Assembly: GCF_009469615.1 (NCBI RefSeq)
Contig: NZ_SSXX01000002.1
Span: 62,001-126,000, forward strand
Direction of reading: 5' to 3'
DNA length: 64,000 bases
Source: Dechloromonas sp. H13
Lineage (GTDB): Bacteria > Pseudomonadota > Gammaproteobacteria > Burkholderiales > Rhodocyclaceae
How positions within the stretch are numbered: the stretch's first letter is position 1; each line of letters begins with the position of its first letter. The translations under genes were made by a program, and so were the position numbers. This document shows, piece after piece, positions 1 to 62,543 of this stretch. The notes below the pieces were generated by a model. The model was given only the letters and a program-made list of their open reading frames with translations, was not told where the DNA came from and made no database searches.

Positions 1-1380
<1,380 letters not shown>

Positions 1381-43978: not shown

Positions 43979-44659
43979 ATGCACTTCCAGTCCGTCACCT
44001 TCGATCTCGACGGCACGCTGCTCGACACCATTGCCGACCTCGCCGAGGGCTGTCGCCTGATGCTCGAAGAAGTCGGCGCGCCGCCGCGCACGCAGGCCGA
44101 AGTCCACAGCTTCGTCGGCAAGGGCATGGCCGTCCTCGTCGAACGTTGCCTGACCCACGAGCAGCCACCGAGCGCCGAAAAGCTGCACGCCGCCATCGAA
44201 TCATTCAAGCGCCACTATGCTGCGGTCAACGGCAAATTCACCCTGATTTACCCCGGCGTCCGCGAAGGCCTGCAGGCGTGGCAGGCCAGTGGCGTGAAGA
44301 TGGGCGTCGTCACCAACAAGCCGGGCATGTTTACCGAGGCGCTGCTCGAGCGCATGGGCCTCGCCGACTATTTCGACCTCGTCGTCTCCGGCGACACCAC
44401 GCCGAACAAGAAGCCGCATCCGGAGCCCATCCTCCATGCCTGCCGCATCTTCAACGTGCGGCCCGACCGCAACCTGCATGTCGGCGATTCGGAAAACGAC
44501 ATCCACGCCGCCCGCGCCGCCGGCTGTCCGGCCTTCTGCGTGCCCTACGGCTACAACGAGGGCAAGCCGGTGGACAGTGCCGATTGCGATGCGCTAGTAT
44601 CCGATCTGCTTGCCGCCTACCGGCAGGCCCTCACCTTCAAAGACCTCAAGCACAAATGA
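43979..44659 (+). CDS. gph: Phosphoglycolate phosphatase
   Basis: 226-aa HAD-superfamily phosphatase clearing 2-phosphoglycolate. Motif I FDLDGTLLDT (residues 6-15), motif II VVTNKPG near 110, motif III lysine in TTPNKKPHP near 143, and motif IV GDSENDIHAARAAG near 168. 3 bp after rpe. Its TGA overlaps the ATG of the Trp-rich leader peptide, linking it to trpE. Confidence 0.95.
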   Translation: MHFQSVTFDLDGTLLDTIADLAEGCRLMLEEVGAPPRTQAEVHSFVGKGMAVLVERCLTHEQPPSAEKLHAAIESFKRHYAAVNGKFTLIYPGVREGLQAWQASGVKMGVVTNKPGMFTEALLERMGLADYFDLVVSGDTTPNKKPHPEPILHACRIFNVRPDRNLHVGDSENDIHAARAAGCPAFCVPYGYNEGKPVDSADCDALVSDLLAAYRQALTFKDLKHK

Positions 44660-44712
44660 CAACGCTGCGACTCTGGAACGAATGGCAAGGTTGGCGTCGC
44701 TGGCGCCCCTGA
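44656..44712 (+). CDS. trpL: Trp-rich leader peptide (candidate trpL)
   Basis: 18-residue open frame [18 protein letters not shown]. Four Trp codons at positions 7, 10, 13 and 16 are spaced exactly every third residue; the stop is TGA at 44710-44712, 70 bp before the trpE ATG. Its ATG overlaps the gph stop (ATGA), so ribosomes finishing gph could re-initiate; there is no strong ribosome-binding site. This is what a tryptophan attenuation leader looks like. A mixed stem is possible (GCGT 44694-44697 with ACGC 44740-44743, and GCGCC 44703-44707 with GGCGC 44734-44738), covering the last Trp codons, but no clear U-tract terminator is visible before trpE, so the mechanism is open. Confidence 0.75.
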
Positions 44713-44782
44713 TCTCCCTTCGCGCGCCCGCCCGGCGCAACGCACCAGACCGCGACACCCCCGTCATTTTCGAGGCTTCCCC

Positions 44783-46270
44783 ATGACCGAAACCGAATTC
44801 AACGCGCTTGCCGCGCAAGGCTACAACCGTATTCCCGTCACGCTGGAAACGTTCGCCGACCTCGACACGCCGCTTTCCATCTACCTCAAGCTGACCAGCG
44901 GCGCCAACGGCGGCCACTATTCCTACCTGCTCGAATCGGTGCAGGGCGGCGAACGCTTCGGCCGCTACTCGATCATCGGCCTCGCCGCGTCGACGCGCAT
45001 CGTCGTCAATGGCCACCAGGTACTGGTGCTGACCGGCAACCGCATCGCCGAGCGCGAGGACGACACCAATCCGCTCGACTTCATCGGCAAGTTCATGCAG
45101 CGCTTCCGGGCGCCGCCGACGTCGGGCCTGCCACGCTTCTGCGGTGGCCTGGTCGGCTGCTTCGGCTACGACACCGTGCGCTACGTCGAGACGCGGCTGA
45201 CCCGCACCCACAAGCCGGACGAAATCGGCACGCCCGACATCGGCCTCCTGCTGTCCGAGGAAATCGCCGTCGTCGACAACCTGTCCGGCAAGCTGACGCT
45301 GATCGTCTATGCCGAACCCGGCTTCCCCGGCGCCTGGCACAAGGCGCGGGCGCGGCTCAAGGAATTGCTCGGCAAGCTGCGCACGCCGGTCGTCATCCAG
45401 GCCGAACAGCCGGTGCCGTCGGAAGCCGCCGTCTCCATCTTCGGTGAAGGCGCCTTCAAGCAGGCGGTCAGGAAGGCCAAGGAGTACATCACCGAGGGCG
45501 ACATCATGCAGGTCGTCCTGTCGCAGCGCATGACCAAGCCGTTCAACGCCAGCCCGCTGGCGCTCTACCGGACGCTGCGCAGCCTCAACCCGTCGCCCTA
45601 CATGTTCTATTTCGACTTCGAGGATTTCCACGTCGTCGGCGCCTCGCCGGAGATCCTGGTCCGCCTCGAAGGCGAGCGCGTCACCGTCCGGCCGATCGCC
45701 GGCACCCGCAAGCGCGGCGCCTCGCCGGAAGAAGATGCGGCGCTGGCCGCCGAACTGCTGGCCGACGAGAAGGAGCGTGCCGAGCACACTCAGCTGCTCG
45801 ACCTCGGGCGCAACGACTGCGGCCGCGTCGCGCGGGTCGGCACGGTCAAGCTGACCGAGAACATGATCGTCGAGCGTTACTCGCACGTGATGCACATCGT
45901 CTCCAACGTCGAAGGCAAGCTGCAGCCGGGGCTCGACGCGCTCGACGTGCTGAAGGCGACCTTCCCGGCCGGCACCGTGTCCGGCGCGCCGAAGGTGCGG
46001 GCGATGGAGATCATCGACGAGCTGGAGCCGGTCAAGCGCGGCATCTACGCCGGCGCCGTCGGCTACCTGGGGTTCAACGGCGACATGGACCTGGCGATCG
46101 CCATCCGCACCGCCGTCGTCAAGGACCGCAAGCTGCACGTCCAGGCCGGCGCCGGCATCGTCGCCGACTCCGACCCCAATTCGGAATGGACCGAAACCCA
46201 GAACAAGGCCCGTGCCGTCCTGCGGGCCGCCGAACTCGCCGAGCAGGGGCTGGATACTCGGATCGACTGA
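44783..46270 (+). CDS. trpE: Anthranilate synthase component I
   Basis: 495-aa chorismate-using enzyme making anthranilate with TrpG ammonia. The N-terminal regulatory part includes a Trp feedback-site element [15 protein letters not shown] (near 50). Catalytic segment: [11 protein letters not shown] near 238, [21 protein letters not shown] near 310, [11 protein letters not shown] near 345 and [17 protein letters not shown] near 393. The partner genes trpGDC lie 13.9 kb downstream behind a separate promoter. Preceded by the Trp-rich leader. Confidence 0.97.
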
Positions 46271-46299
46271 TCCCCAACCAGCGCCGCGCGTAAATGAAG

Positions 46300-46328
46300 A
46301 ACCGCCCGTGAAAATGGGCGGTTTTTTT
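46300..46328 (+). terminator. Terminator after trpE
   Basis: AACCGCCC/GGGCGGTT 8-bp stem, 8-nt loop, followed by a run of T. Strong intrinsic terminator. The next bases (46331) begin a copy of the repeated word. Confidence 0.92.
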
Positions 46329-46330
46329 AC

Positions 46331-46341
46331 GTCGACCGCAG
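46331..46341 (-). repeat. Intergenic copy of the YTGCGGTCGAC word
   Basis: Plus strand reads GTCGACCGCAG, directly after the T-run of the trpE terminator. On the minus strand the word is followed by GT and seven A. Confidence 0.6.
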
Positions 46342-46354
46342 CAGGCGGCAGGTG

Positions 46355-46398
46355 TCGGAAATCCGAGGGCAGGATCCGGCCGGCAGTCGGAAATCCGG
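46355..46398 (+). promoter_or_regulatory. Two inverted-repeat activator sites before gltI
   Basis: TCGGAAATCCGA (46355-46366) and TCGGAAATCCGG (46387-46398), starts 32 bp apart (about three helical turns). Both fit the core of TTCGG-N4-CCGAA, which I recall as the AauR site for acidic amino acid genes in Pseudomonas. They lie 75-120 bp upstream of the sigma-54 promoter, the usual enhancer distance. Confidence 0.6.
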
Positions 46399-46472
46399 CG
46401 CCTTGCGCCGGGTGGTCGAAATAAATCGTTGAAAAATCAATCGCCTGGGTTTTTTTGTGCGGCCGATTTTCC

Positions 46473-46488
46473 TGGCATGCCCCCTGCA
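46473..46488 (+). promoter_or_regulatory. Sigma-54 promoter before gltI
   Basis: TGGCATG-N4-CTGCA matches TGGCACR-N4-TTGCW, with the invariant GG (46474-46475) and GC (46486-46487) exactly 10 bp apart. Predicted start near 46499, 42 bp before the gltI ATG. Confidence 0.8.
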
Positions 46489-46540
46489 ATGTATTTCCCG
46501 TCGAAGCCGACCGCCGGCTTCCTTACTGACTGGAGATGAC

Positions 46541-48536
<1,996 letters not shown>

Positions 48537-48606
48537 GCGCAAACGCAACGCCGGGGCGGGCCAGCGGCGCGCCCCGGACCGATCACAACAATCGAGGGAT
48601 CCCTCC

Positions 48607-49344
48607 ATGAGCTATCAATGGAACTGGGGCGTCTTCCTGCAGCCTAGCGCGAGCGGCGACGACACCTATCTGGGCTGGATGCTGGCCGGCTTCAAAATGA
48701 CCATCGGGCTGTCGTTGACCGCCTGGGTGCTGGCGCTGCTGCTCGGCGCGCTGATCGGCGTGCTGCGCACGGTGCCGAACAGGGCGCTGGCCGGTTTTGC
48801 CACCGGCTACGTCGAACTGTTCCGCAACATACCGCTGCTGGTGCAGTTGTTCATCTGGTATTTCGTGTTGCCGGAACTGCTGCCGGAAAGCCTCGGCAAC
48901 CTCTACAAGCAGTCGAATCCGCTGCTGCAGCAATTCCTCGCCTCGATGATCTGCCTCGCGCTGTTTACCAGTGCCCGGGTCGCCGAGCAGGTGCGCGCCG
49001 GCATCAACTCGCTGCCCAAGGGCCAGAAGAACGCTGGCCTGGCCCTCGGCTTCACGCTGCCGCAGACCTACCGCTTCGTCCTGCTGCCGATGGCCTTCCG
49101 CCTCGTCGTCCCGCCGCTGACCTCGGAATTCCTGAATATCTTCAAGAATTCCGCCGTCTGCTCGACCATCGGCCTCCTCGAACTCGCAGCCCAGGGCCGC
49201 CAACTGGTCGATTACACGGCGCAGCCCTACGAATCCTTCATCGCCGTGACCCTGGCCTACCTGCTGATCAACGTCACCGTGATGTTCCTGATGCATCGCT
49301 TCGAGCGCCGCATCGTGGTGCCCGGCTACATCGGAGGCAAATAA
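48607..49344 (+). CDS. gltJ: Glutamate/aspartate ABC transporter permease GltJ
   Basis: 245-aa inner-membrane permease of the His/Glu/Gln class, about five helices. Starts [23 protein letters not shown], typical of GltJ. The ABC-interacting EAA-like loop is [26 protein letters not shown] in parts (about residues 120-150). Stop is 1 bp before the gltK ATG. Confidence 0.93.
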
Positions 49345-49345
49345 C

Positions 49346-50026
49346 ATGTACGAATTCGACTGGTCCTCCATCCCCGGGGCGCTGCCCTTCCTCTGGGAAG
49401 GCATGAAAATCTCCCTCGAAATCACGTTGACCGCAGTCGTCATCGGCATCGTCTGGGGCACGCTGCTGGCCATGATGCGGCTGTCGTCGTTCCGGCCGCT
49501 GTCGTGGTTCGCCGCCGGCTACGTCAACCTGTTCCGCGCCGTGCCGCTGGTCATGGTGCTGCTCTGGTTCTTCCTGATCGTTCCCAAGTTCATCGAGCAG
49601 CTGTTCGGCCTGCCGCCCGGCAGCGACCTGCGCCTGACCTCGGCGATGATCGGTTTCGCGCTGTTCGAGTCGGCCTACTACTCCGAGATCATCCGCGCCG
49701 GCATCCAGAGCGTGCCCAAGGGCCAGATGGCCGCCTGCTCGGCGCTCGGCATGACCTACGGCCAGGCCATGCGCCTCGTCATCCTGCCGCAGGCCTTCCG
49801 CAACATGGTGCCGCTGCTGCTGACCCAGGCCATCATCCTGTTCCAGGACACCTCGCTGGTCTATGTCTCGGCGCTGGCCGACTTCTTCGGCGCCGCCTAC
49901 AAGGTCGGCGACCGCGACGGCCGCCTGGTCGAGATGCTGCTGTTCGCCGGCGCCGTCTATTTCGTCATCTGCTACACCGCTTCGCAGATCGTGAAGCGCC
50001 TCCAGAAAAAATACCACCCGGCCTGA
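49346..50026 (+). CDS. gltK: Glutamate/aspartate ABC transporter permease GltK
   Basis: 226-aa second permease half. Opens [19 protein letters not shown], typical of GltK. EAA-type loop: [16 protein letters not shown] then [14 protein letters not shown] (about 112-140). Forms the channel with GltJ. Confidence 0.93.
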
Positions 50027-50051
50027 TTGCCCGCCTTCAAGGAGAAATTCC

Positions 50052-50780
50052 ATGATCCAGATTTCCAACGTCAGCAAGCACTACGGCGCCTTCCAGGTGC
50101 TCACCGACTGCACGACCTCAGTCAGCAAGGGCGAGGTGATCGTCGTCTGCGGTCCCTCCGGTTCCGGCAAGTCGACCCTGATCAAGTGCGTCAATGGCCT
50201 CGAACCCTTCCAGTCCGGCGAAATCATCGTCAACGGCACCTCGGTCGGCGACCCGAAAACCAATCTGTCCAAGCTGCGCGCCCACGTCGGCATGGTCTTC
50301 CAGAACTTCGAGCTGTTCCCGCACATGAGTATCACCGAGAACCTGACCATCGCCCAGACCAAGGTGCTCGGGCGCGGCAAGGAGGAGGCGATGGACAAGG
50401 GCCTCAAACTGCTCGACCGCGTCGGCCTCAAGGCGCATGCCCACAAGTTCCCCGGCCAGCTGTCCGGCGGCCAGCAGCAGCGCGTGGCGATCGCCCGGGC
50501 GCTGGCGATGGACCCGATCTGCATGCTGTTCGACGAACCGACCTCGGCCCTCGACCCGGAAATGGTCAACGAAGTGCTCGACGTGATGACCGAACTGGCG
50601 CGTGAAGGCATGACCATGATGTGCGTGACACACGAAATGGGATTCGCCAAACGCGTCGCCAACCGGGTCATCTTCATGGACCAGGGGCGCATCGTCGAGG
50701 ACGACAGCAAGGAGGCCTTCTTCGCCAACCCGCGCTCGGAGCGGGCGCAGCAGTTCCTGGCGAAGATCCTTCACCATTGA
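50052..50780 (+). CDS. gltL: Glutamate/aspartate ABC transporter ATPase GltL
   Basis: 242-aa ATP-binding subunit. Walker A GPSGSGKS (34-41), Q-loop [11 protein letters not shown], signature LSGGQQQR (137-144), Walker [15 protein letters not shown] and the H-loop His in CVTHEMGFA. Imperfect stem GCCCCTG/CAGGGGC (50789-50823) follows and might end the operon. Confidence 0.95.
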
Positions 50781-50856
50781 TTCATCCGGCCCCTGGCCTC
50801 ACCGTTCGCGGCGCGGCAGGGGCATCATCCGGACTCTCATCAGGAAGCACCCGACC

Positions 50857-51501
50857 ATGGACGACAGCCTGAACCGGCTGGCCATCAGCTTTTTTCTCGG
50901 CGGATTGATCAGTCTGAGCACGATCACCAATCCGCTCTCGAAAATCCCCGTCTTCCTGACCCTGGCCGCCGATCTGGATGCCGTGACTTCCTCGCATGAG
51001 GCACGGCGGGCCTGCTTCTACGGCTTTCTGCTGCTGGCCGTCGGGCTGTTCGCCGGCGTCTTCATCCTTGAGGTGTTCGGTATTTCCTTCGGCGCCTTGC
51101 GCATCGCCGGCGGGCTGACCGTGGCCCTGATCGGCTACCGCATGCTGTTCGGCAGCAGCGATGCCGCGCTGATCGGCGGCGACGGCAGCTTTGCCTTCTT
51201 CCCGTTGGCGATGCCGGGTATCGCCGGGCCGGGCGCGCTGGCGACGGTGATCGGCATCTCGTCGGAAATTGCCGAGCTCTCGGGCGGCCTGCGCCGCCTG
51301 CTGGCCTATGCCGCCACCGTCGCCAGCATCGCCGCGACCTGCCTGTTGATCTGGCTGGTCCTGCGTTCCGCGCGCTGGGTGTCGCGCCGCCTGGGCAGCG
51401 AAGGCATCAACGTCATCACCCGCCTGACCGGCTTTCTGCTCATCTGTATCGGTGTGCAGTTCGTCGCGTCGGGCACCCGCAGTTTCGTGGCCGGCACCTG
51501 A
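50857..51501 (+). CDS. MarC-family (UPF0056) membrane protein
   Basis: 214-aa protein with about six helices. Family markers: ISTITNPLSKIPVFLTL near 24, the central FPLAMPGIAGPGALATVIG near 113, and the C-terminal RLTGFLLICIGVQFVASG. Despite the name, members are not proven antibiotic-resistance transporters. It lies between gltL and aspA on the same strand, but nothing links it functionally to them. Confidence 0.88.
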   Translation: MDDSLNRLAISFFLGGLISLSTITNPLSKIPVFLTLAADLDAVTSSHEARRACFYGFLLLAVGLFAGVFILEVFGISFGALRIAGGLTVALIGYRMLFGSSDAALIGGDGSFAFFPLAMPGIAGPGALATVIGISSEIAELSGGLRRLLAYAATVASIAATCLLIWLVLRSARWVSRRLGSEGINVITRLTGFLLICIGVQFVASGTRSFVAGT

Positions 51502-51540
51502 CCGGCTACGCCAACCATGAGTATTCAACAAGGAGACAGC

Positions 51541-52941
<1,401 letters not shown>

Positions 52942-53009
52942 CGCGGTCGACCGTCAAAAAGGGGCGATTTTCAGCGGTTACAATGCGCCGTCCGCCCCGC
53001 CGCCAAACC

Positions 53010-54928
53010 ATGCCCGAAACCCGCCAGACGATCCCGGTTGCCTTGCCCCGCCCGCATCGGCCGCTGGCGGTCGCGCTGGTGCTGCTGCTCCTGCTGGCGG
53101 TCGGGCTGCTTGCCTACCGCGCCTCGGAGCGTGCCGGGTTGCGCCAAATGCGGGCCGAGGCCAGCCACCAGCTCGACATCCTGGCCGCGGCCATCGACAG
53201 CGAGGTGACGCGGCATGCCTCGATTCCCAGTGCCGTCGAGCTGAATCCTGACGTGCTGGCCCTGCTGCGCGCCCCGGCCGAGCGCCAGGACACGCTGCAG
53301 CCGGCAGCCAACCGCTTCCTGCAGCAGCTCAACGACCATCTCGGCGGGCCGGCCATCTTCGTGCTCGATACCCGCGGCCAGGTCGTCGCGTCGAGCGACT
53401 GGATCTTTTCCGACAACCTGCTCGGCTCCGACGTCTCCTACATGCCCTTTTTCCGCAGCGCGGTTGGCGGCACGCCGGCGCGCCACTACGCGGTCGACAA
53501 GGTGCGCCACGAGCCCGGTTATTTCTTCGCGCTGCCGATCCGCGACGAGCGGCAGGAGTGGAAGGTGATCGGCGTCGCCGTCGTCAAGTCCAGCCTGCGC
53601 GAGATCGAGCGGCGCTGGCTGGGCCAGGAAGCGCCGGCGCTGATCGTCGACCGTAATGGCATCGTCCTCCTCGCTTCGCCGCCGGAATGGCGCTACGCGA
53701 CGCTGCAGGCGCCGGGCAGGGAAGCGCTGGCGCGGATCAGCCGCGAGCAGTTCGCCGGCCAGCCGGTCGGTGCAGTCAGCCTCGACATCGCGCTCGAAGG
53801 CGCCGACGAGGGCGTCATCGTCCGCCTGCCCAGGCATCTGCGCGAGGACATGAATCCACTGCCCGGCGCCCGCCCCTATCTGGCGCTGTCGCGCAATCTG
53901 CCGGGGACGGCGTGGCGCATCGTCGTCTTCTCCGACCTGCGGCCGGTGGCCGTGCAGGCGGCGACGCACGCCGCGCTGGCGACCGCCGCCATCGGCTGTC
54001 TGCTGCTCGGCCTGCTTTACCTGAACCAGCGCCGGCGGCTGGCGCGCGGGCGCGAGGAAGCGCGGGCGATGCTGGAGCGGGCCAATCAGGAGCTGGAGCG
54101 CAACGTCGCCGAACGCACCGCCGACCTTTCCGAGGCGGTGACCCGCCTGCAGCGCGAAGTCGGCGAGCGCCAGCGCGCCGAGCAGACGCTGCGCGCCGCC
54201 CAGGACGAACTGGTGCAGGCGGCCAAGCTGGCGGTGCTCGGCCAGATGGCGACCGGCATCACGCACGAGCTGAGCCAGCCGCTCGGCGCCATCCGCACGC
54301 TGTCGGCCAACGCCGCCGAGTTCATGCGGCGCGGCGACCTAGCGACGGCGGAAAAGAATCTCGCCATCGTCGGCCAGCTGTCCGAGCAGATGGGCGGCAT
54401 CATCGGGCCGCTCAAGACCTTCGCGCGCAAGTCGCCGGCGGTGCCGGCGGCGGTCGACGTCGCGCAGGCGGTCGACGCCGCGCTGTTCCTCTTCGAGCAG
54501 CGGCTGCGCAAGCAGTCGATTGTGGTCGACCGGCAAATCGCGGCCAATTCCTGGATCGCCTGGTGCGACCGCAACCGCCTGCAGCAGGTGCTGGTCAACC
54601 TGATCGGCAACGCCATCGACGCGATGGCCGACGAGCCGGAACGGCGGCTGACGTTTTCCGTGGAGCGCGCCAGTTCGGGGCAGGTGGCCCTGGCCGTCAG
54701 CGATAGCGGTGCCGGCTTCACAGAGGCGGCGCTCGAACATTTGTTCGAGCCTTTCTTCACGACCAAGCAGCCGGGCGAAGGCCTGGGCCTCGGGCTGACC
54801 ATTTCGCGCGACATCCTGCGCGATTTCGGCGGCGACCTGCTGGCCGGTCCGGCCCCCGGTGGCGGGGCGCGTTTTGTTATCCTGTTGCCGCCCGTGCCAT
54901 CGACTTCTCCTGCCGAAAAAGATCCGCC

Positions 54929-54932
<4 letters not shown>
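53010..54932 (+). CDS. DctB/AauS-type sensor histidine kinase
   Basis: 640-aa membrane sensor. Helix 1 (about 16-34), a large periplasmic double-sensor (dCACHE-like) domain (about 35-305), helix 2 (about 310-330), coiled coil (about 335-400), then the kinase. The phospho-acceptor His is in GITHELSQPLGAIR (about 418); N-box NLIGNAIDAM, G1 DSGAGF and G2 GEGLGLGLTI follow. TACAAT at 52979-52984 is a likely -10, 26 bp before the ATG at 53010; upstream open frame is an aspA shadow. Class is that of C4-dicarboxylate/acidic amino acid sensors. Neighbouring gltI/ansB/aspA suggest acidic amino acids or their amides as signal. Confidence 0.9.
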
Positions 54933-56245
<1,313 letters not shown>

Positions 56246-56261
56246 GCCGCCGGTATCGGCG

Positions 56262-56882
56262 TCAGCGGGTCGCTGTTGATGGCGACGTTGCCAGCCGGCG
56301 CACGATGTCGTCGAGGACGGCGCGGGAATTCATGATGAAGGTGTGGCTTGCGGCGACCTCGACCCGCTCGCCGCTTTCGCTCGCGACCTCGTCGAGCGTC
56401 AGGATGCCGTCGTTGGCCTGGTTGCCGAACGGCAGCCAGCGGGCGCGCGGACCGGCGGTGCCGGCATAGATGACGGTATTTGGCGGCAGCGGCAGGCTGT
56501 GCATGAACGCCTCGTCGGCGAGCAGGCTGCCCATCTCGCCGGTCAGCGCCCGGTAGAGCCCGTAGCGCGAGAAAAACCGCGCCGCCTTGCAGGCGCGCAT
56601 CGGCGGCGCCAGCAGAAAGGTATGGCGCGGCGGATTCGTCAGCTTGGCCAGCGCCCGGCGCAGGATCACCGAGCCCAGCGAGTGGCCGATGACTGCGTAA
56701 GGAAGCGAGCCGACCTGTTGCTCGATCTTGCGCACCACCCGGGCGCTGACGCCGTCCAGATTCTCGGCCCATGCCGCATAGCCGAACAGGTACGTGCCGT
56801 ACCCCAGCTTTGCCAGACGCCGTTTCAGGATCAGCATGGAAGCCGGCGTACGCCCCATGCCGTGGATCAGGATGATGTCCAT
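56262..56882 (-). CDS. Alpha/beta-fold hydrolase
   Basis: 206 aa. Begins IILIHGMGRTP (oxyanion-region HG), has the nucleophile elbow GHSLGS (Ser near 67) and a late His in ASHTFIMN. The fold resembles small lipase/esterase-like hydrolases that act on lipids or thioesters; substrate unknown. Last gene of the minus-strand envelope cassette, 10 bp after the PAP2 gene. Confidence 0.82.
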   Translation of the reverse strand: MDIILIHGMGRTPASMLILKRRLAKLGYGTYLFGYAAWAENLDGVSARVVRKIEQQVGSLPYAVIGHSLGSVILRRALAKLTNPPRHTFLLAPPMRACKAARFFSRYGLYRALTGEMGSLLADEAFMHSLPLPPNTVIYAGTAGPRARWLPFGNQANDGILTLDEVASESGERVEVAASHTFIMNSRAVLDDIVRRLATSPSTATR

Positions 56883-56892
56883 CGGCCGGGGT

Positions 56893-57585
56893 TCAGGCTT
56901 GCTGCGCCGTCGGTAGCCAGCCTGCCTTGCGGAACAGCCATTCGGTGACCCACAGGCTGAAGTAGGTGGCGAACCAGGCGAAGATGGTGTCGGACAGGAA
57001 GTGGCCGCCCGGCACCATGCGCACCAGCGCGAAGAGGCCGCCGAAGGCGATGCTGGCGAGCAGCCAGCGGCGGCGCACGGCCGGCGCGCCGAGCCAGCCG
57101 AAGGCCATGATGAAGGAGGCGGTGGCGACGTGGCCGCTGACGAAGGAGCAGTTCTTGGCGCACTGGTCGGCCGGGATGAAGGCCGGCGTGAACTGCTTGC
57201 TGCCGCCGAAATTCACCGTATTGACCGGGCGCGTCCGCCCCGAATGTTCCTTCAGCGTCGCGTCGACCAGCAGGATCGGGCCAAGCAGCCCGCCGGCGAG
57301 CATGAAGCCGATCACCGCGCGGCGCGCCTTGAGCCCGGGGAAACGGTGCCAGAAGCTGAGCAGCAGGAGCGCCAGCAGCACGACCAGCAACCCCTGGCCG
57401 ACGCGCGGCAGGCCGCGGTAGGGGATTTTCAGCCACCACGATTCGTTGTTCAGCAGCCACTGCCCGTCACCCCGGTAGAACAGGCCGCTGGCCGCCAGGT
57501 CGAGCTGCGGGAAGGCGACGAAGAGCACGGCCAGCAGGCCGAACGCGAGCAGCGCGAGGCGAAATTCAGTAGCCCTTGAAGTCAC
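56893..57585 (-). CDS. PAP2-family membrane phosphatase
   Basis: 230-aa protein with about six helices. All three PAP2 motifs are intact: KEHSGRTRP (KX6RP, near 105), VSGH (near 145) and RMVPGGHFLSD (R-X5-H-X3-D, near 193). Likely removes phosphate from a lipid such as undecaprenyl pyrophosphate or lipid A, on the periplasmic side. Start overlaps the preceding glycosyltransferase by 20 bp, so the genes are coupled. Confidence 0.9.
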   Translation of the reverse strand: MTSRATEFRLALLAFGLLAVLFVAFPQLDLAASGLFYRGDGQWLLNNESWWLKIPYRGLPRVGQGLLVVLLALLLLSFWHRFPGLKARRAVIGFMLAGGLLGPILLVDATLKEHSGRTRPVNTVNFGGSKQFTPAFIPADQCAKNCSFVSGHVATASFIMAFGWLGAPAVRRRWLLASIAFGGLFALVRMVPGGHFLSDTIFAWFATYFSLWVTEWLFRKAGWLPTAQQA

Positions 57586-59041
57586 GGAGCAGATAGACGT
57601 TCATGGTGCGCGACTGTTCGCCCGGCAGCGGCGCCTGCAGCGCGGCGAGTTGTTCGCTGCTGGCGAAACGGCGGGTGAACTCCTCGTCGATCGGGTCTTC
57701 GCGGATCAGGATGGCGTCGCGGCCGAGCCACGGGCGCAGGTCGGTGGTCAGTTTGTAGTGGTCGCTGGCGATGCCGGCCGGGTTCCAGCTGGCGGCCGGT
57801 CGCCGCAGGTCGCGCACTTCGTAGAGCATGTGGGCGAGGAGGGTGCGGTTGTCGGCGATCAGCACGGCGTCGGGGTAGGCCTGCAGCAGCGGCGTCAGTT
57901 GCCGGCCGAGGTCGTCCCAGCCCTGGGCGCGGGCGTAGAAATTCATTTTTGCCTGTTTTTGGCCGTCGACCGCCGCAAGCACCAGCGGCCAATGGTAGGC
58001 GACGCCGATCAGGGCGATGTTGAGCGCGATGCCGGCGATCAGCAGCCGCTGCCTGCCGCGCTGCAGCAGCCAGGCGACTACAGCGATGGCGGCCGGCGCG
58101 AAGGCCGGCGCCGCCCAGTTGGCGTTGGCGGTGCTCTTGAAGGCCTGCGCCGAGACGACCGCCCACAGCGGCAGGGCGAACCACAGCAGGAGCCGCGTGC
58201 GCTCGTCGGACCAGCTCTTGCGCACCTGAAAGAGCAGGATGAAAAAAACGCTGCCGAGCACCGGTCCGAAGGCGCCCCATTGCGCCGCCCAGAATTCGCC
58301 TAGCGCCTTCAGGCCGCCGCCGGCCTTGCGGTTCACGGTGATGTCAGCGGTGTGCTTCAGGGTCGGGAAATCGTGGGCGACGTTCCACCCCAGGTTCGGT
58401 CCGAGGATGAGCAGCGCCACCCCGGTGGCCAGCCACGGTTTGGGCGATGCCAGGCGGCGGCGGTGGAAGGCCAGCAGGTGCAGGAAGGCGGCACCCAGCC
58501 AGGCGGCCATCGTGTATTTGGAGAGCAGGCCGAGGCCGCAGATGGCGCCGAGCAGCAGCCAGTCGCCCCAGGCGTCGCTGTCCAGCGCACGCAGGTAGGC
58601 CCACAGCGCCAGCGCCCAGAACAGGGTGAGCAGGGCGTCGGTCGAGACGAAGAGGCCGAGCCAGGCGAAGATCGGCAGGGTCAGCACGGCCAGTGCCGAC
58701 CAGAAGGCGACGCGCGCGTCGTAGAGGCGGCGGGCGATGGCCCAGCAGGCGGCGGCGGCGAGCGGGTAGCAGAGCATGGCCAGCGCCTTGACGCCGAGCA
58801 GGCCGTCGCCGAACAGCGTGGTGGACAGGGCGATCAGCGCCGCGACGCCGGGTGGCTTGGAGAAATAGCCCCAGTCGAGGTGCTGCGCCCAGGTCCAGTA
58901 TTGCGCCTCGTCGACGTAGAGCGTGACGCCCATGCGCGGAACGACCCAGAAGCGCCAGGCGAGCAGGAGGGCCGTCAGGCCGAGCAGGATCTTGCCGCCG
59001 GATTTCTCGTAAATTCCGGCGTCGACCGCAACAGCCGTCAC
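57566..59041 (-). CDS. GT39/GT83-type membrane glycosyltransferase (ArnT-like)
   Basis: 491-aa polytopic protein (about eleven helices). The acidic loop with YVDEAQYWTWAQHL and YFSKPPGVAAL (about 43-70) is typical of polyprenyl-phosphate-sugar-using enzymes. The C-terminal periplasmic part (about 345-491) would bind the acceptor. It probably moves a sugar from undecaprenyl phosphate to lipid A, LPS or protein. GTG start overlaps the GT2 stop (GTGA). The word YTGCGGTCGAC encodes residues 4-7. Confidence 0.87.
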   Translation of the reverse strand: MTAVAVDAGIYEKSGGKILLGLTALLLAWRFWVVPRMGVTLYVDEAQYWTWAQHLDWGYFSKPPGVAALIALSTTLFGDGLLGVKALAMLCYPLAAAACWAIARRLYDARVAFWSALAVLTLPIFAWLGLFVSTDALLTLFWALALWAYLRALDSDAWGDWLLLGAICGLGLLSKYTMAAWLGAAFLHLLAFHRRRLASPKPWLATGVALLILGPNLGWNVAHDFPTLKHTADITVNRKAGGGLKALGEFWAAQWGAFGPVLGSVFFILLFQVRKSWSDERTRLLLWFALPLWAVVSAQAFKSTANANWAAPAFAPAAIAVVAWLLQRGRQRLLIAGIALNIALIGVAYHWPLVLAAVDGQKQAKMNFYARAQGWDDLGRQLTPLLQAYPDAVLIADNRTLLAHMLYEVRDLRRPAASWNPAGIASDHYKLTTDLRPWLGRDAILIREDPIDEEFTRRFASSEQLAALQAPLPGEQSRTMNVYLLRDFKGY

Positions 59042-60048
59042 GCCGGCCTGTGCCAGCCTTCATCGGCGGCCAGCGGGGTCTCCGGGCGCGCCGAATAGGA
59101 GCGGATGGTGCCGGACTCGAAGTAGATGCGGGCGAGCAGTTCGGCGAGCACGCCGGTGGTGATGAAATGGACGCCGGCGATCAGGCCGCCGATGCCGACG
59201 ATCAGCGCCGGGCGGCCGCCGATCGGATTGCCGAGGCCGAACTTTACCCACGCCAGCCAGGCCAACACGAGGCCGGAAAGCGCGGTCAGGGCCAGCCCGA
59301 TGCTGCCGAAGAAATGCCCGGGGCGGGCACGGAAGCGCATGAAGAAGAACACCGCGATGAGGTCGAGGATGACGCGGAAGGTGCGCGAGATGCCGTACTT
59401 GGAGACGCCGGCAGTGCGCGCGTGGTGCGTCGTCGGTTCCTGCGCGATGCGGCGCGGCGTCGTCACGGTGGCCAGCCAGGCCGGGATGAAGCGGTGCATT
59501 TCACCATACAGGCGGACGCGCTTGATGACGTCGCCGCGGAAGGCCTTGAGGCTGCAGCCGTAGTCGCGCAGCTTGACGCCGGTCATGCGGGCGATCAGCT
59601 TGTTGGCGATCTTCGAGGGGATCTTGCGCAGCACCAGGCCGTCCTGGCGGTTCTGGCGCCAGCCGGCGACCAGGTCGAGGTCTTCGTTCAACAGGCGGGC
59701 GACCATGCGCGGAATGTCGATCGGGTCGTTCTGCAGGTCGCCGTCCATGGTCACGATCACATCGCCGCGCGCCGCGTCGATGCCGGCCTGCATGGCGGCG
59801 GTCTGCTTGAAGTTGCGCGTCAGCTCGACGATGCGCACATGCGGGCCGTATTCCTTCGCCGACTGCAGGGCGCGCTCGACCGTCGCGTCGCTGCTGCCGT
59901 CGTCGACCAGCACCAGTTCCCACGGATTCTCGTAGCCGGTCAACGCTTCATGCACGCGCTTGACCAGCGGCGCGATGTTGTCTTCCTCGTTGTAGAACGG
60001 GACGACGATGGAAAGCGCGTGCGGCGGGACGGTATGGGCGGCGTTCAT
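59038..60048 (-). CDS. Family 2 glycosyltransferase (polyprenyl-phosphate type, ArnC/DPM1-like)
   Basis: 336 aa. GT-A domain: ALSIVVPFYNEEDNI near 12, LVDDGSSDAT near 47, TMDGDLQNDP near 100 (DxD-like). Two C-terminal helices (about 240-262 and 272-295) anchor it. Expected to make undecaprenyl-phosphate-sugar at the inner face for the ArnT-like enzyme. ATG at 60048 is preferred; an ATG at 60075 would add nine residues. TAAAAT just upstream may be the -10. First gene of the cassette. Confidence 0.88.
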   Translation of the reverse strand: MNAAHTVPPHALSIVVPFYNEEDNIAPLVKRVHEALTGYENPWELVLVDDGSSDATVERALQSAKEYGPHVRIVELTRNFKQTAAMQAGIDAARGDVIVTMDGDLQNDPIDIPRMVARLLNEDLDLVAGWRQNRQDGLVLRKIPSKIANKLIARMTGVKLRDYGCSLKAFRGDVIKRVRLYGEMHRFIPAWLATVTTPRRIAQEPTTHHARTAGVSKYGISRTFRVILDLIAVFFFMRFRARPGHFFGSIGLALTALSGLVLAWLAWVKFGLGNPIGGRPALIVGIGGLIAGVHFITTGVLAELLARIYFESGTIRSYSARPETPLAADEGWHRPA

Positions 60049-60106
60049 AAGCGAATCCGGCGGTAAAGGCGGCATTTTAATCGAAAAGCCCCCGCCCGGC
60101 TGTGCA

Positions 60107-60137
60107 GTGGGCCTTTAATGTAGAATCAGGGGCTCAC
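60107..60137 (+). promoter_or_regulatory. trpGDC promoter candidate
   Basis: TAGAAT at 60121-60126, 35 bp before trpG. It lies between GTGGGCC (60107-60113) and GGCTCAC (60131-60137), an inverted repeat with one G-U pair. Confidence 0.45.
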
Positions 60138-60160
60138 GAAACAGGCAAGGAATCAACAGC

Positions 60161-60733
60161 ATGCTGCTGATGATCGACAATTACGACAGCTTCACCTACA
60201 ACATCGTCCAGTATTTCGGCGAGTTGGGGCAGGAGGTGCAGGTTTACCGCAACGATGCCATCGGCGTCGCCGACATCGCCCGCCTCAAACCCGAGTATCT
60301 GGTGATTTCGCCCGGCCCCTGCGCCCCGGCTCAGGCCGGCATCTCGCTGGCGGCGATCCGCGAGTTCGCCGGCAAGATTCCGCTGCTTGGCGTCTGCCTC
60401 GGCCACCAGGCGATCGGCGAAGCCTTCGGCGGCAGGATCGTGCACGCCAAGCAACTGATGCACGGCAAGGTGTCGCCGGTGCGCCACAAGGATGTCGGCG
60501 TCTTCAAGGGCCTGCCCAACCCGCTGACCTGTACCCGCTACCACTCGCTGGCCATCGAGCGCGAGACACTGCCCGACTGCCTCGACATCACCGCCTGGAC
60601 CGACGACGGCGAGATCATGGGCGTCCGCCACAAGACGCTGGCCGTCGAGGGCGTGCAGTTCCACCCCGAATCCATCCTGACCGAACGCGGTCACGACCTG
60701 CTCAAGAACTTCCTGGACGAATTCAAGAAATGA
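60161..60733 (+). CDS. trpG: Anthranilate synthase component II (glutamine amidotransferase)
   Basis: 190-aa class I amidotransferase supplying ammonia to Trp[19 protein letters not shown] at the start, [11 protein letters not shown] near 50, nucleophile Cys in [15 protein letters not shown] (near 79) and catalytic His/Glu in VQFHPESIL (near 168). Its stop overlaps the trpD start (ATGA). Confidence 0.97.
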
Positions 60734-61755
60734 CCCCCCAAGCCGCCCTTCAGCGTGTCATCGAACACCGCGAAATTTTCCATGACGAAATGGTCTCGCT
60801 GATGCGCCAGATCATGGGCGGCGAAGTGACGCCGGTCATGATCGCTGCCATCGTCACCGGGTTGCGCGTCAAGAAGGAAACCATCGGCGAGATCGCCGCT
60901 GCCGCCAGCGTCATGCGCGAGCTGTCCACCAAGGTGGATGTGCCTTACGACAACCGTTTCGTCGACATCGTCGGCACCGGCGGCGATTCGGCGCACAGCT
61001 TCAACATCTCGACCACCTCGATCTTCGTCGCCGCGGCCGCCGGCGCCAAGGTGGCCAAGCACGGCGGGCGCAGCGTGTCGTCGAGTTCGGGCAGCGCCGA
61101 CGTGCTGGAAGCGCTCGGCGCCAACATCATGCTGTCGCCGGAACAGGTCGCCGCCTGCATCGCCGAAACCGGCATCGGCTTCATGTTCGCGCCGAGCCAT
61201 CACAGCGCGATGAAGCACGTCGCGCCGGTGCGCCGTGAAATGGGGGTGCGCACCATCTTCAACATCCTCGGACCGCTGACCAACCCGGCGAGCGCGCCGA
61301 ACACGCTGATGGGCGTCTTCCATCCCGATCTTGTCGGCATCCAGGTCCGCGTCATGCAGCGCCTCGGCGCCGAGCGCGTGCTGGTCGTGCACGGCAAGGA
61401 CAACCTCGACGAGATCTCGCTCGGCGCGGCGACCCTGGTCGGTGAGCTGAAGGATGGCGAGGTGCGCGAATACGAGGTGCATCCCGAGGACTTCGGCCTG
61501 CAGATGCTGTCGCTGCGCAACCTGCGCGTCGGCAGCGCCGAGGAGTCGAAGGCCATGCTGCTCGGCGCCCTCGACAACAAGCCGGGCGCCGCGCGCGAGA
61601 TCGTCTGCCTGAACGCCGGCGCCGCGCTCTACGTCGCCAACGTCGCCGCCAGCATCGGCGACGGCATCGTCCGGGCGCGCGAAGCCATTGCCAGCGGCGC
61701 CGCGCGCGCCAAGCTGGCGCAGTTCGTCGAATGCACGCAGCGGCTGGCGAAGTAA
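60730..61755 (+). CDS. trpD: Anthranilate phosphoribosyltransferase
   Basis: 341-aa enzyme joining anthranilate and [20 protein letters not shown] near 80 (PRPP/phosphate loop), [21 protein letters not shown] near 106 and [10 protein letters not shown] near 178. One-base overlap with trpC (TAATG). Confidence 0.97.
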
Positions 61756-62543
61756 TGGCCGACATTCTCGACCGGATCGTCGCCACCAAGCGCGAGGAAA
61801 TCGCTGCCGCACAAGCCGTCAAGCCGCTCGCCGCCGTCGAGGCCGAAGCCGCGACCCAGCCGGCGCCGCGCGATTTCGTCGGCGCCATCCGCCGCAAGAT
61901 CGGTTGCGGTCGGCCGGCCGTCATTGCCGAAATCAAGAAGGCGAGCCCGTCGAAAGGCGTCATCCGCCCCGACTTCCAGCCGGCCGAAATCGCCCGCAGC
62001 TATGCCGCGCACGGTGCTGCCTGCCTGTCGGTGCTGACCGACCGCCAGTATTTCCAGGGCTGCCCGGACTACTTGCAGGCCGCCCGCGCCGCATGCGAAC
62101 TGCCGGTGCTACGCAAGGACTTCATGGTCGATGCTTACCAGGTCGCCGAGGCGCGGGCGATGGGCGCCGACTGCATCCTGCTCATCGCCGCCTGCCTGTC
62201 GCTCGCTGAAATGCAGGCGCTGGAAGCGCAGGCGCATGGCTACGGCATGGCAGTGCTGGTCGAGGTCCATGACGGCGAGGAACTCGATGTCGCGCTACAG
62301 TTGCAGACGCCGCTGCTCGGCATCAACAACCGCAACCTGCGCACCTTCGAGGTCACGCTGCAGACGACGCTCGACCTGCTGCCACGCATCCCGGCCGAGC
62401 GCATCGTGGTTGCCGAAAGCGGTATCCTGAAGCCGGAAGACGTGGCGCTGATGCGCGCCAACCAGGTCGAAACCTTCCTGGTCGGCGAGGCCTTCATGCG
62501 CGCCCCGTCGCCCGGCGAAGAGCTGGCGCGCCTGTTTTCCTGA
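61755..62543 (+). CDS. trpC: Indole-3-glycerol phosphate synthase
   Basis: 262-aa TIM-barrel enzyme. [14 protein letters not shown] at the start, [19 protein letters not shown] (catalytic Lys, near 60), [13 protein letters not shown] near 118 and [12 protein letters not shown] near 193, VAESGI near 220. Standalone, not fused to TrpF. ATG at 61755; an upstream in-frame start lies inside trpD. Confidence 0.97.

Follow-up and report, generated by a model that had tools for sequence, protein, structure and literature searches.

In enteric bacteria, the control of trpE by a leader peptide is the textbook case of transcription attenuation; the Escherichia coli trpL attenuator is represented in Rfam by RF00513 (Trp_leader). 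Translational attenuators of the erm and cat type rely on a ribosome stalled on a leader open reading frame (ORF), which exposes a sequestered Shine-Dalgarno (SD) sequence, while in Bacillus subtilis rtpA (anti-TRAP) the leader peptide contains Trp codons and the adjacent SD is covered by the ribosome that occupies the stop codon of the leader. The LEU element upstream of leuA in Actinobacteria contains a run of Leu codons in its leader that pairs with the leuA SD to give a base stem, accompanied by a pseudoknot (PMC1262725). Its authors preferred to see it as a protein-binding site, with reference to evidence that regulation was unaffected by mutation of the Leu codons (PMC1262725). Among the literature matches listed, which come from a collection lacking most subscription journals and were judged by title and opening of the abstract, no trpE leader was described for Betaproteobacteria or Burkholderiales.

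The trpE gene of Dechloromonas sp. H13 is preceded by a Trp-rich leader which, judged from sequence comparison and modelling, probably (about 70 %) serves as a translational attenuator of trpE. As in E. coli trpL, a short Trp-rich leader stands before trpE, and ribosome stalling would be the sensor; in contrast to trpL, there is no terminator in the window and no SD in front of the leader, no antiterminator-like pairing was found, and the selected pairing connects the leader start with the trpE SD. The exposure of an SD by a ribosome stalled on the leader, as proposed here, would be shared with erm and cat, but an amino acid would take the place of the drug as signal, and there is a single direct sequestor whose arm is the leader start, with no competing helix detected. 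With rtpA the locus would share Trp codons in a leader peptide governing downstream translation initiation, whereas its SD would be shut by RNA pairing about 60 nt past the leader stop. The nearest published parallel encountered is the LEU element: codons of a leader ORF are paired with the SD of a biosynthetic gene. The pairing arm here is, however, the leader start, mostly 5' of the Trp codons, and phylum and pathway are different.

The window, i.e. the whole stretch of 64,000 nucleotides analysed, harbours the following elements around the leader:

43979..44659, + strand, gph, phosphoglycolate phosphatase (TIGR01449, 219.4 bits, cut-off 180); its 3' end contains the promoter and the 5' arm of P1a
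44571..44600, + strand, probable internal promoter for leader and trpE, TGGACA-18-TAGTAT, inside gph (single promoter-like site found)
44640..44647, + strand, 5' arm of helix P1a, AAGACCTC, last gph codons, anti-SD for trpE (RNAalifold, 46 genus loci)
44654..44660, + strand, 5' arm of helix P1b, AAATGAC, gph stop and leader start codon (RNAalifold; order-wide swap tests)
44656..44712, + strand, leader ORF of 18 codons, Trp codons 7, 10, 13 and 16, no SD (translation, shuffles, genus alignment)
44667..44676, + strand, 5' arm of helix P2, GCGACTCTGG, leader codons 4-7, the last being Trp7 (genus swap test)
44693..44707, + strand, hairpin spanning Trp13-Trp16, GGCGTC-GCT-GGCGCC (RNAalifold)
44724..44738, + strand, hairpin following the leader stop, GCGCC/GGCGC, without U-tract (RNAalifold)
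44745..44753, + strand, 3' arm of P2, CCAGACCGC (genus swap test)
44763..44769, + strand, 3' arm of P1b, GTCATTT, just 5' of the trpE SD (RNAalifold)
44772..44778, + strand, 3' arm of P1a, GAGGCTT, containing the trpE SD GAGG at 44772-44775 (RNAalifold)
44783..46270, + strand, trpE, anthranilate synthase component I (TIGR00564, 572.3 bits, cut-off 517.7)

Translation bore out the frame described in the initial annotation, with 18 residues, Trp at positions 7, 10, 13 and 16, a start on the gph stop (ATG at 44656-44658 overlapping TGA at 44657-44659, as ATGA) and an end 70 nt before the trpE ATG at 44783. Its Trp clustering had been judged strong evidence for a regulatory leader. When 44641-44782 was shuffled by mononucleotides 20,000 times, four Trp were never reached in ORFs no longer than 30 aa, the maximum being three (4 shuffles). 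Taking the two strands of the whole window together, 362 ORFs of 10-30 aa start with ATG, and only two of them contain at least four Trp, the second of which is located in another frame inside the asparaginase gene. For comparison beyond the window, 146 distinct leaders with a score of at least 6 were condensed to 103 non-redundant loci; four of these (L088, L099, L148 and L162) were judged to be ORFs inside gph and were kept in the 103-locus tests and dropped from the 99-locus sets. The suspected lack of a strong leader ribosome-binding site (RBS) holds in general, since SD:anti-SD energies of -5 or better were found for 4 % of leaders versus 75 % of trpE genes (103 loci). An ATCATG context without SD is found at the leaders of L128, L152, L154 and L155, which belong to several families.

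The genus, inferred to be Azonexus/Dechloromonas, is represented by 55 trpE loci including the window's own; among 80 named loci fetched with TrpE sequence, the protein of Dechloromonas hortensis is 94 % identical to that of the window. Trp-containing leaders were identified in 53 of the 55 genus loci, the other two being interrupted by contig ends. Across 46 eighteen-codon leaders, which were chosen by Trp score with L033 (W7 and W16 only) falling outside the set, W7, W13 and W16 are each invariant (46/46), and W10 is present in 36, Glu taking its place in the other 10. Variability in these 46 leaders increases over codon positions 1-3 (0.106, 0.164 and 0.241, respectively), and insertions of 24 or 27 nt in genus loci L015, L023 and L035 are in frame. 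In L049, one base is lost before the leader stop, rendering the leader 24 codons longer with a stop that overlaps the trpE ATG; all Trp codons are retained. Locus L081 (genome G013, placed in the same genus) has a trpE 62 % identical to the window's and a leader identical in 14 of 18 positions; conservation here is higher for the leader than for the enzyme. Left out of the locus sets were genomes whose best trpE match was weak or absent, G019 of the genus (full trpE, upstream stretch absent from the set) and the full-trpE loci of G112, G125, G147, G167, G197, G065, G084 and G088 as well as the second copy in G207.

Among 135 further loci of the GTDB order, 62 (63 before removal of L148) have two or more Trp codons clustered in an ORF. 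The remaining loci include four with weaker Trp ORFs, 20 with ORFs whose Trp stands in an Arg-Trp or comparable context, chance surely accounting for some of them, 18 with trpE abutting gph, two at contig ends and 28 without a Trp ORF despite a gph-trpE gap, the latter counting against an attenuator. With one locus per family (L055-L090 without L081; L088 not counted), clustered-Trp leaders were found in 17 of 35. The order-wide leader peptides have little in common except Trp-Arg motifs, e.g., WRWRR or WRRWRP, and by reading TTGGCGATGG is leader DNA in several families. Comparison thus documents a leader whose Trp codons, frame and position are conserved within the genus and which is found, in altered guise, over a large part of the order, supporting the earlier proposal of a Trp-sensing regulatory leader. 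A single Trp codon in Arg-Trp context occurs in the leader-like ORFs of L063, L066, L070, L125, L126, L139 and L149; in leaders of this type one Trp codon may perhaps suffice.

The leader start region is complementary to the trpE RBS, with sequences that differ from family to family. Examples of such arms (leader start/trpE upstream) are CCCGGATCCTGAA/TTCAGGATCCGGG in L102, ATGAGCTCCGAAG/CTTCGGAGTTCGT in L097 and TGTTTCTC/GAGAAACA in L083. In a swap test, the duplex energy of leader -15..+30 with trpE -40..+3 was determined for native partners and for partners swapped between species. For the 103 non-redundant loci, the mean was -23.2 kcal/mol with native versus -16.4 kcal/mol with swapped partners (z -18.8, 0/5,000 permutations), and the native partner ranked within the best 5 % for 46 % of loci. 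Resolved by leader segment, z amounted to -4.8 (-15..0), -12.3 (0..15) and -7.3 (15..30). Four control regions from the same loci yielded +2.0 (upstream stretch with RBS), +1.1 (leader +30..+75, approximately the Trp-codon stretch, with RBS), +0.4 (leader start with trpE coding sequence) and +0.8 (leader start with -80..-40). Pairing of the sensed-codon run itself with the SD, as in the LEU element, is therefore not what distinguishes these loci (+1.1 versus -18.8 for the start region), although P2 in the genus does include the first Trp codon.

The signal was retained with about one locus per family (23 loci, L088 and L099 among them; z -7.1, 0/20,000; controls -0.7 and +1.0) and in the 67 loci that are left when false leaders, the genus group and the seven cases that were strongest or resembled repeats are taken out (z -14.0, control +0.7). 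A control at gph, in which the RBS of this gene was combined with the stretch 142-97 nt before the gene in 61 loci, gave z -3.6 (1/5,000), which indicates that the swap test is not perfectly calibrated and that a z of this size is untrustworthy; -18.8 is far outside. Taken alone, the arm pairing of the window is within chance (native -21.8, swapped mean -22.2) and the fold energy of its RNA is not unusual (z +0.72); the evidence for structure is comparative. In L059, L065, L121 and L123, the arms of leader start and trpE RBS resemble a dispersed palindromic repeat of the CACAGAGACACAGAGG or CGCAAAGGACGCAAAGG type, contiguous over 27 bp in L059; L121, with such repeat-like arms, has no Trp ORF. 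In loci of this kind, the role of the sequestor may have passed to a palindromic repeat.

Within the genus, RNAalifold predicted four helices unprompted from the 46 loci, i.e. P1a, P1b, the hairpin spanning Trp13-Trp16 and a second hairpin located between the stop of the leader and trpE. Overall, 98.9 % of helix cells are paired as compared to 30-53 % when slid, and the CCTC:GAGG core of P1a is paired in 99.5 % of cells with hardly any variation. Changes on both sides were detected at four pairs, in one sequence each, with three of the five pairs of the stop-trpE hairpin involved. Alignment of related gph-trpE gaps, the check advised in the initial annotation, showed the Trp codons to be conserved; P1 is too invariant in the genus for more than weak covariation. 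P2 is absent from the RNAalifold consensus but emerged clearly when partners were swapped among 48 genus loci (z -6.3, 0/20,000; neighbouring leader segment, z 0.5). The trpE SD is thus embedded in a conserved helix, as expected for a translational attenuator. Pairing of the Trp-codon region with the region after the stop also reached a swap z of -4.8; this pairing and the Trp13-Trp16 hairpin are without an evident role in the proposed switch, which counts against it. A covariance model of the genus element (R1) detected the trpE leader as the sole copy in its own genome (E 1) and, in the family sample, matched in 10 of 121 genomes (E 0.01), too few for order-wide use.

The effect of ribosomes on this pairing was computed by placing them in silico on the leader, a queued one 28 nt behind, and counting the remaining leader:RBS pairs (99 loci). 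From 17.8 pairs in free RNA, the number fell to 11.0 with a ribosome at the first Trp codon and to 2.5 with a queued one added; the respective values were 16.6 and 7.2 for the last Trp codon and 17.4 and 12.5 for the stop. Since a queued ribosome lowers the pairs at the stop as well (17.8 to 12.5), queueing by itself lacks specificity. In 74 of 103 loci, the trpE RBS is predicted to be more accessible with the ribosome at the first Trp codon than at the stop (p 8.5e-8), mean unpaired values being 0.333 (free), 0.341 (stop), 0.394 (first Trp) and 0.499 (leader start). For the window's mRNA from 44607, the calculation gave 17.6 pairs free, 0.3 at W7, 2.6 at W10, 8.8 at W13, 15.6 at W16 and 10.3 at the stop; the SD is unpaired to 0.24 (free), 0.41 (W7) and 0.25 (stop), a modest predicted change in accessibility. 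At other upstream lengths the effect weakens, with a ribosome at W7 leaving 5.3 of 13.1 pairs in one calculation and 7.0 of 16.8 in another; a ribosome at W10 changes little unless a second is queued behind it. A first Trp at codon 14 or earlier lets the pairs fall with a single stalled ribosome in silico, whereas in the 23 of 99 loci with the first Trp at codon 15 or later a single stalled ribosome fails to open the stem (p 0.4), which opens only with a second, queued ribosome. These late-Trp loci are the weakest part of the model.

The proposed attenuator would operate as follows. The leader start region, comprising the start codon, its flanks and the first codons, would pair over about 110 nt with the trpE RBS and thereby shut it, and the leader would be reached by ribosomes arriving from gph or on an mRNA of its own. 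With ample Trp-tRNA, ribosomes would cross the leader fast, the stem would re-form behind them, and trpE would be translated poorly. With Trp-tRNA in short supply, a ribosome halted at the first Trp codons would cover the 5' arm (P2 and P1b in the genus), and ribosomes queued behind it would cover the rest of the arm, exposing the trpE SD. No antisequestor was found, as the single alternative pairing tested, of the region after the stop with the trpE RBS, gave z 0.1 (71 loci); the effect of stalled ribosomes would thus consist in covering the 5' arm. According to these computations, ribosomes at the Trp codons could open the site; presumably the leader is translated, Trp alters trpE expression and queued ribosomes contribute.

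Tentatively, and at rather less than even odds, an order-wide class of amino-acid translational attenuators, with an architecture undescribed among the literature matches listed, may be envisaged in which an SD-less leader uses its own start-codon segment as anti-SD and which, lacking an antisequestor, would read ribosome occupancy and queueing at the leader start. Leader and trpE would be mutually gated in their translation, because one stem holds both start sites. The sequence of the stem could drift, or give way to a palindromic repeat of the dispersed kind, provided that both sites still match. Across much of a second large order, the sensor known from enteric bacteria, i.e. Trp codons, appears to be coupled to a different output, the trpE RBS, in a simpler switch. 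Such loci would allow to test whether a single sequestor together with ribosome stalling or queueing suffices for amino-acid control. Searching for leader starts that match the SD of the next gene might uncover similar fast-evolving attenuators before other biosynthetic genes; those encountered here were missed by Rfam models, with only four weak unrelated matches in the window at a permissive threshold and, among 20 related loci, none that attained the gathering score of a family.

Transcription attenuation as in E. coli trpL, in which the ribosome position would select between a terminator and an antiterminator hairpin, is suggested by a Trp-rich leader 5' of trpE. It is nevertheless unlikely at this locus, as no terminator-like site was detected at 44500-44900 in a terminator scan of the window and by reading no U-run follows either hairpin, in agreement with the earlier remark that a clear U-tract terminator is missing. 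The absent complementarity between the after-stop region and the RBS argues in the same direction, as does the extension of the selected pairing to the trpE SD, superfluous for a terminator; the initial suspicion that classic attenuation may not apply is thereby supported. Across the order, terminator-like sites were found in 13 of 103 loci versus 6.7 ± 2.4 after shuffling, a slight excess that favours this mechanism and implies that some lineages may differ from the window. An equally improbable alternative is Rho-dependent polarity, where a shut trpE RBS and the untranslated stretch would admit Rho and stalled ribosomes would block it, i.e. the same pairing with an output at the RNA level. 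Such polarity would follow from the same closed state, and 44713-44760 is C-rich by reading; SD sequestration, however, is sufficient by itself.

In the probable promoter inside gph, the rare CTA codon of Asp-Ala-Leu-Val forms part of the -10 box (44588-44600 region). At this codon (Leu/Ile of Asp-Ala-Leu/Ile-Val), ATA or CTA is used in 52 of 72 loci, as opposed to a background of 3.4 % for ATA, CTA and TTA among the L/I/V/M codons of the same gph genes, and the codon is located 44-80 nt upstream of the leader ATG in 56 of 72 loci. Sigma-70-like scores of at least 9 of 12 upstream of the leader were obtained for 33 of 99 loci versus 0/99 in a control stretch and 0/99 in shuffled sequence, so that the signal, too, emerges from comparison. 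A trpE promoter embedded in gph is probable, and its mRNA would begin near 44607, some 49 nt ahead of the leader; a promoter is apparently written into coding sequence across an order.

For 64 of the 86 non-redundant loci that possess gph, its stop was computed to lie between -4 and +31 nt relative to the leader ATG, which renders coupling plausible on read-through mRNA. The assumed dependence of the leader on gph termination is only partly borne out, as mRNA from the probable internal promoter would bypass gph translation. A mere linkage by leader and stem of trpE translation to ribosomes passing the gph end, with Trp codons of little importance, would fit this proximity, the SD-less leader and the higher RBS accessibility with a ribosome on the leader start than at the first Trp, but is the least probable explanation, since the Trp codons are among the most conserved leader positions (in a set picked by Trp score) and recur before trpE in changed peptides across the order, and since the internal promoter signal would uncouple the leader from gph.

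For the translational attenuator, the genomic scope appears narrow. The genes trpG, trpD and trpC are located 14 kb downstream of trpE (60161-62543; trpG assigned by position and sequence), and no Trp-rich ORF was seen before trpG when this stretch was inspected by eye. Given this and the single R1 copy in the genome, the switch would act on the first committed enzyme only. The region between trpE and trpGDC (46270-60161) begins with genes for a glutamate/aspartate ABC transporter protein and asparaginase.
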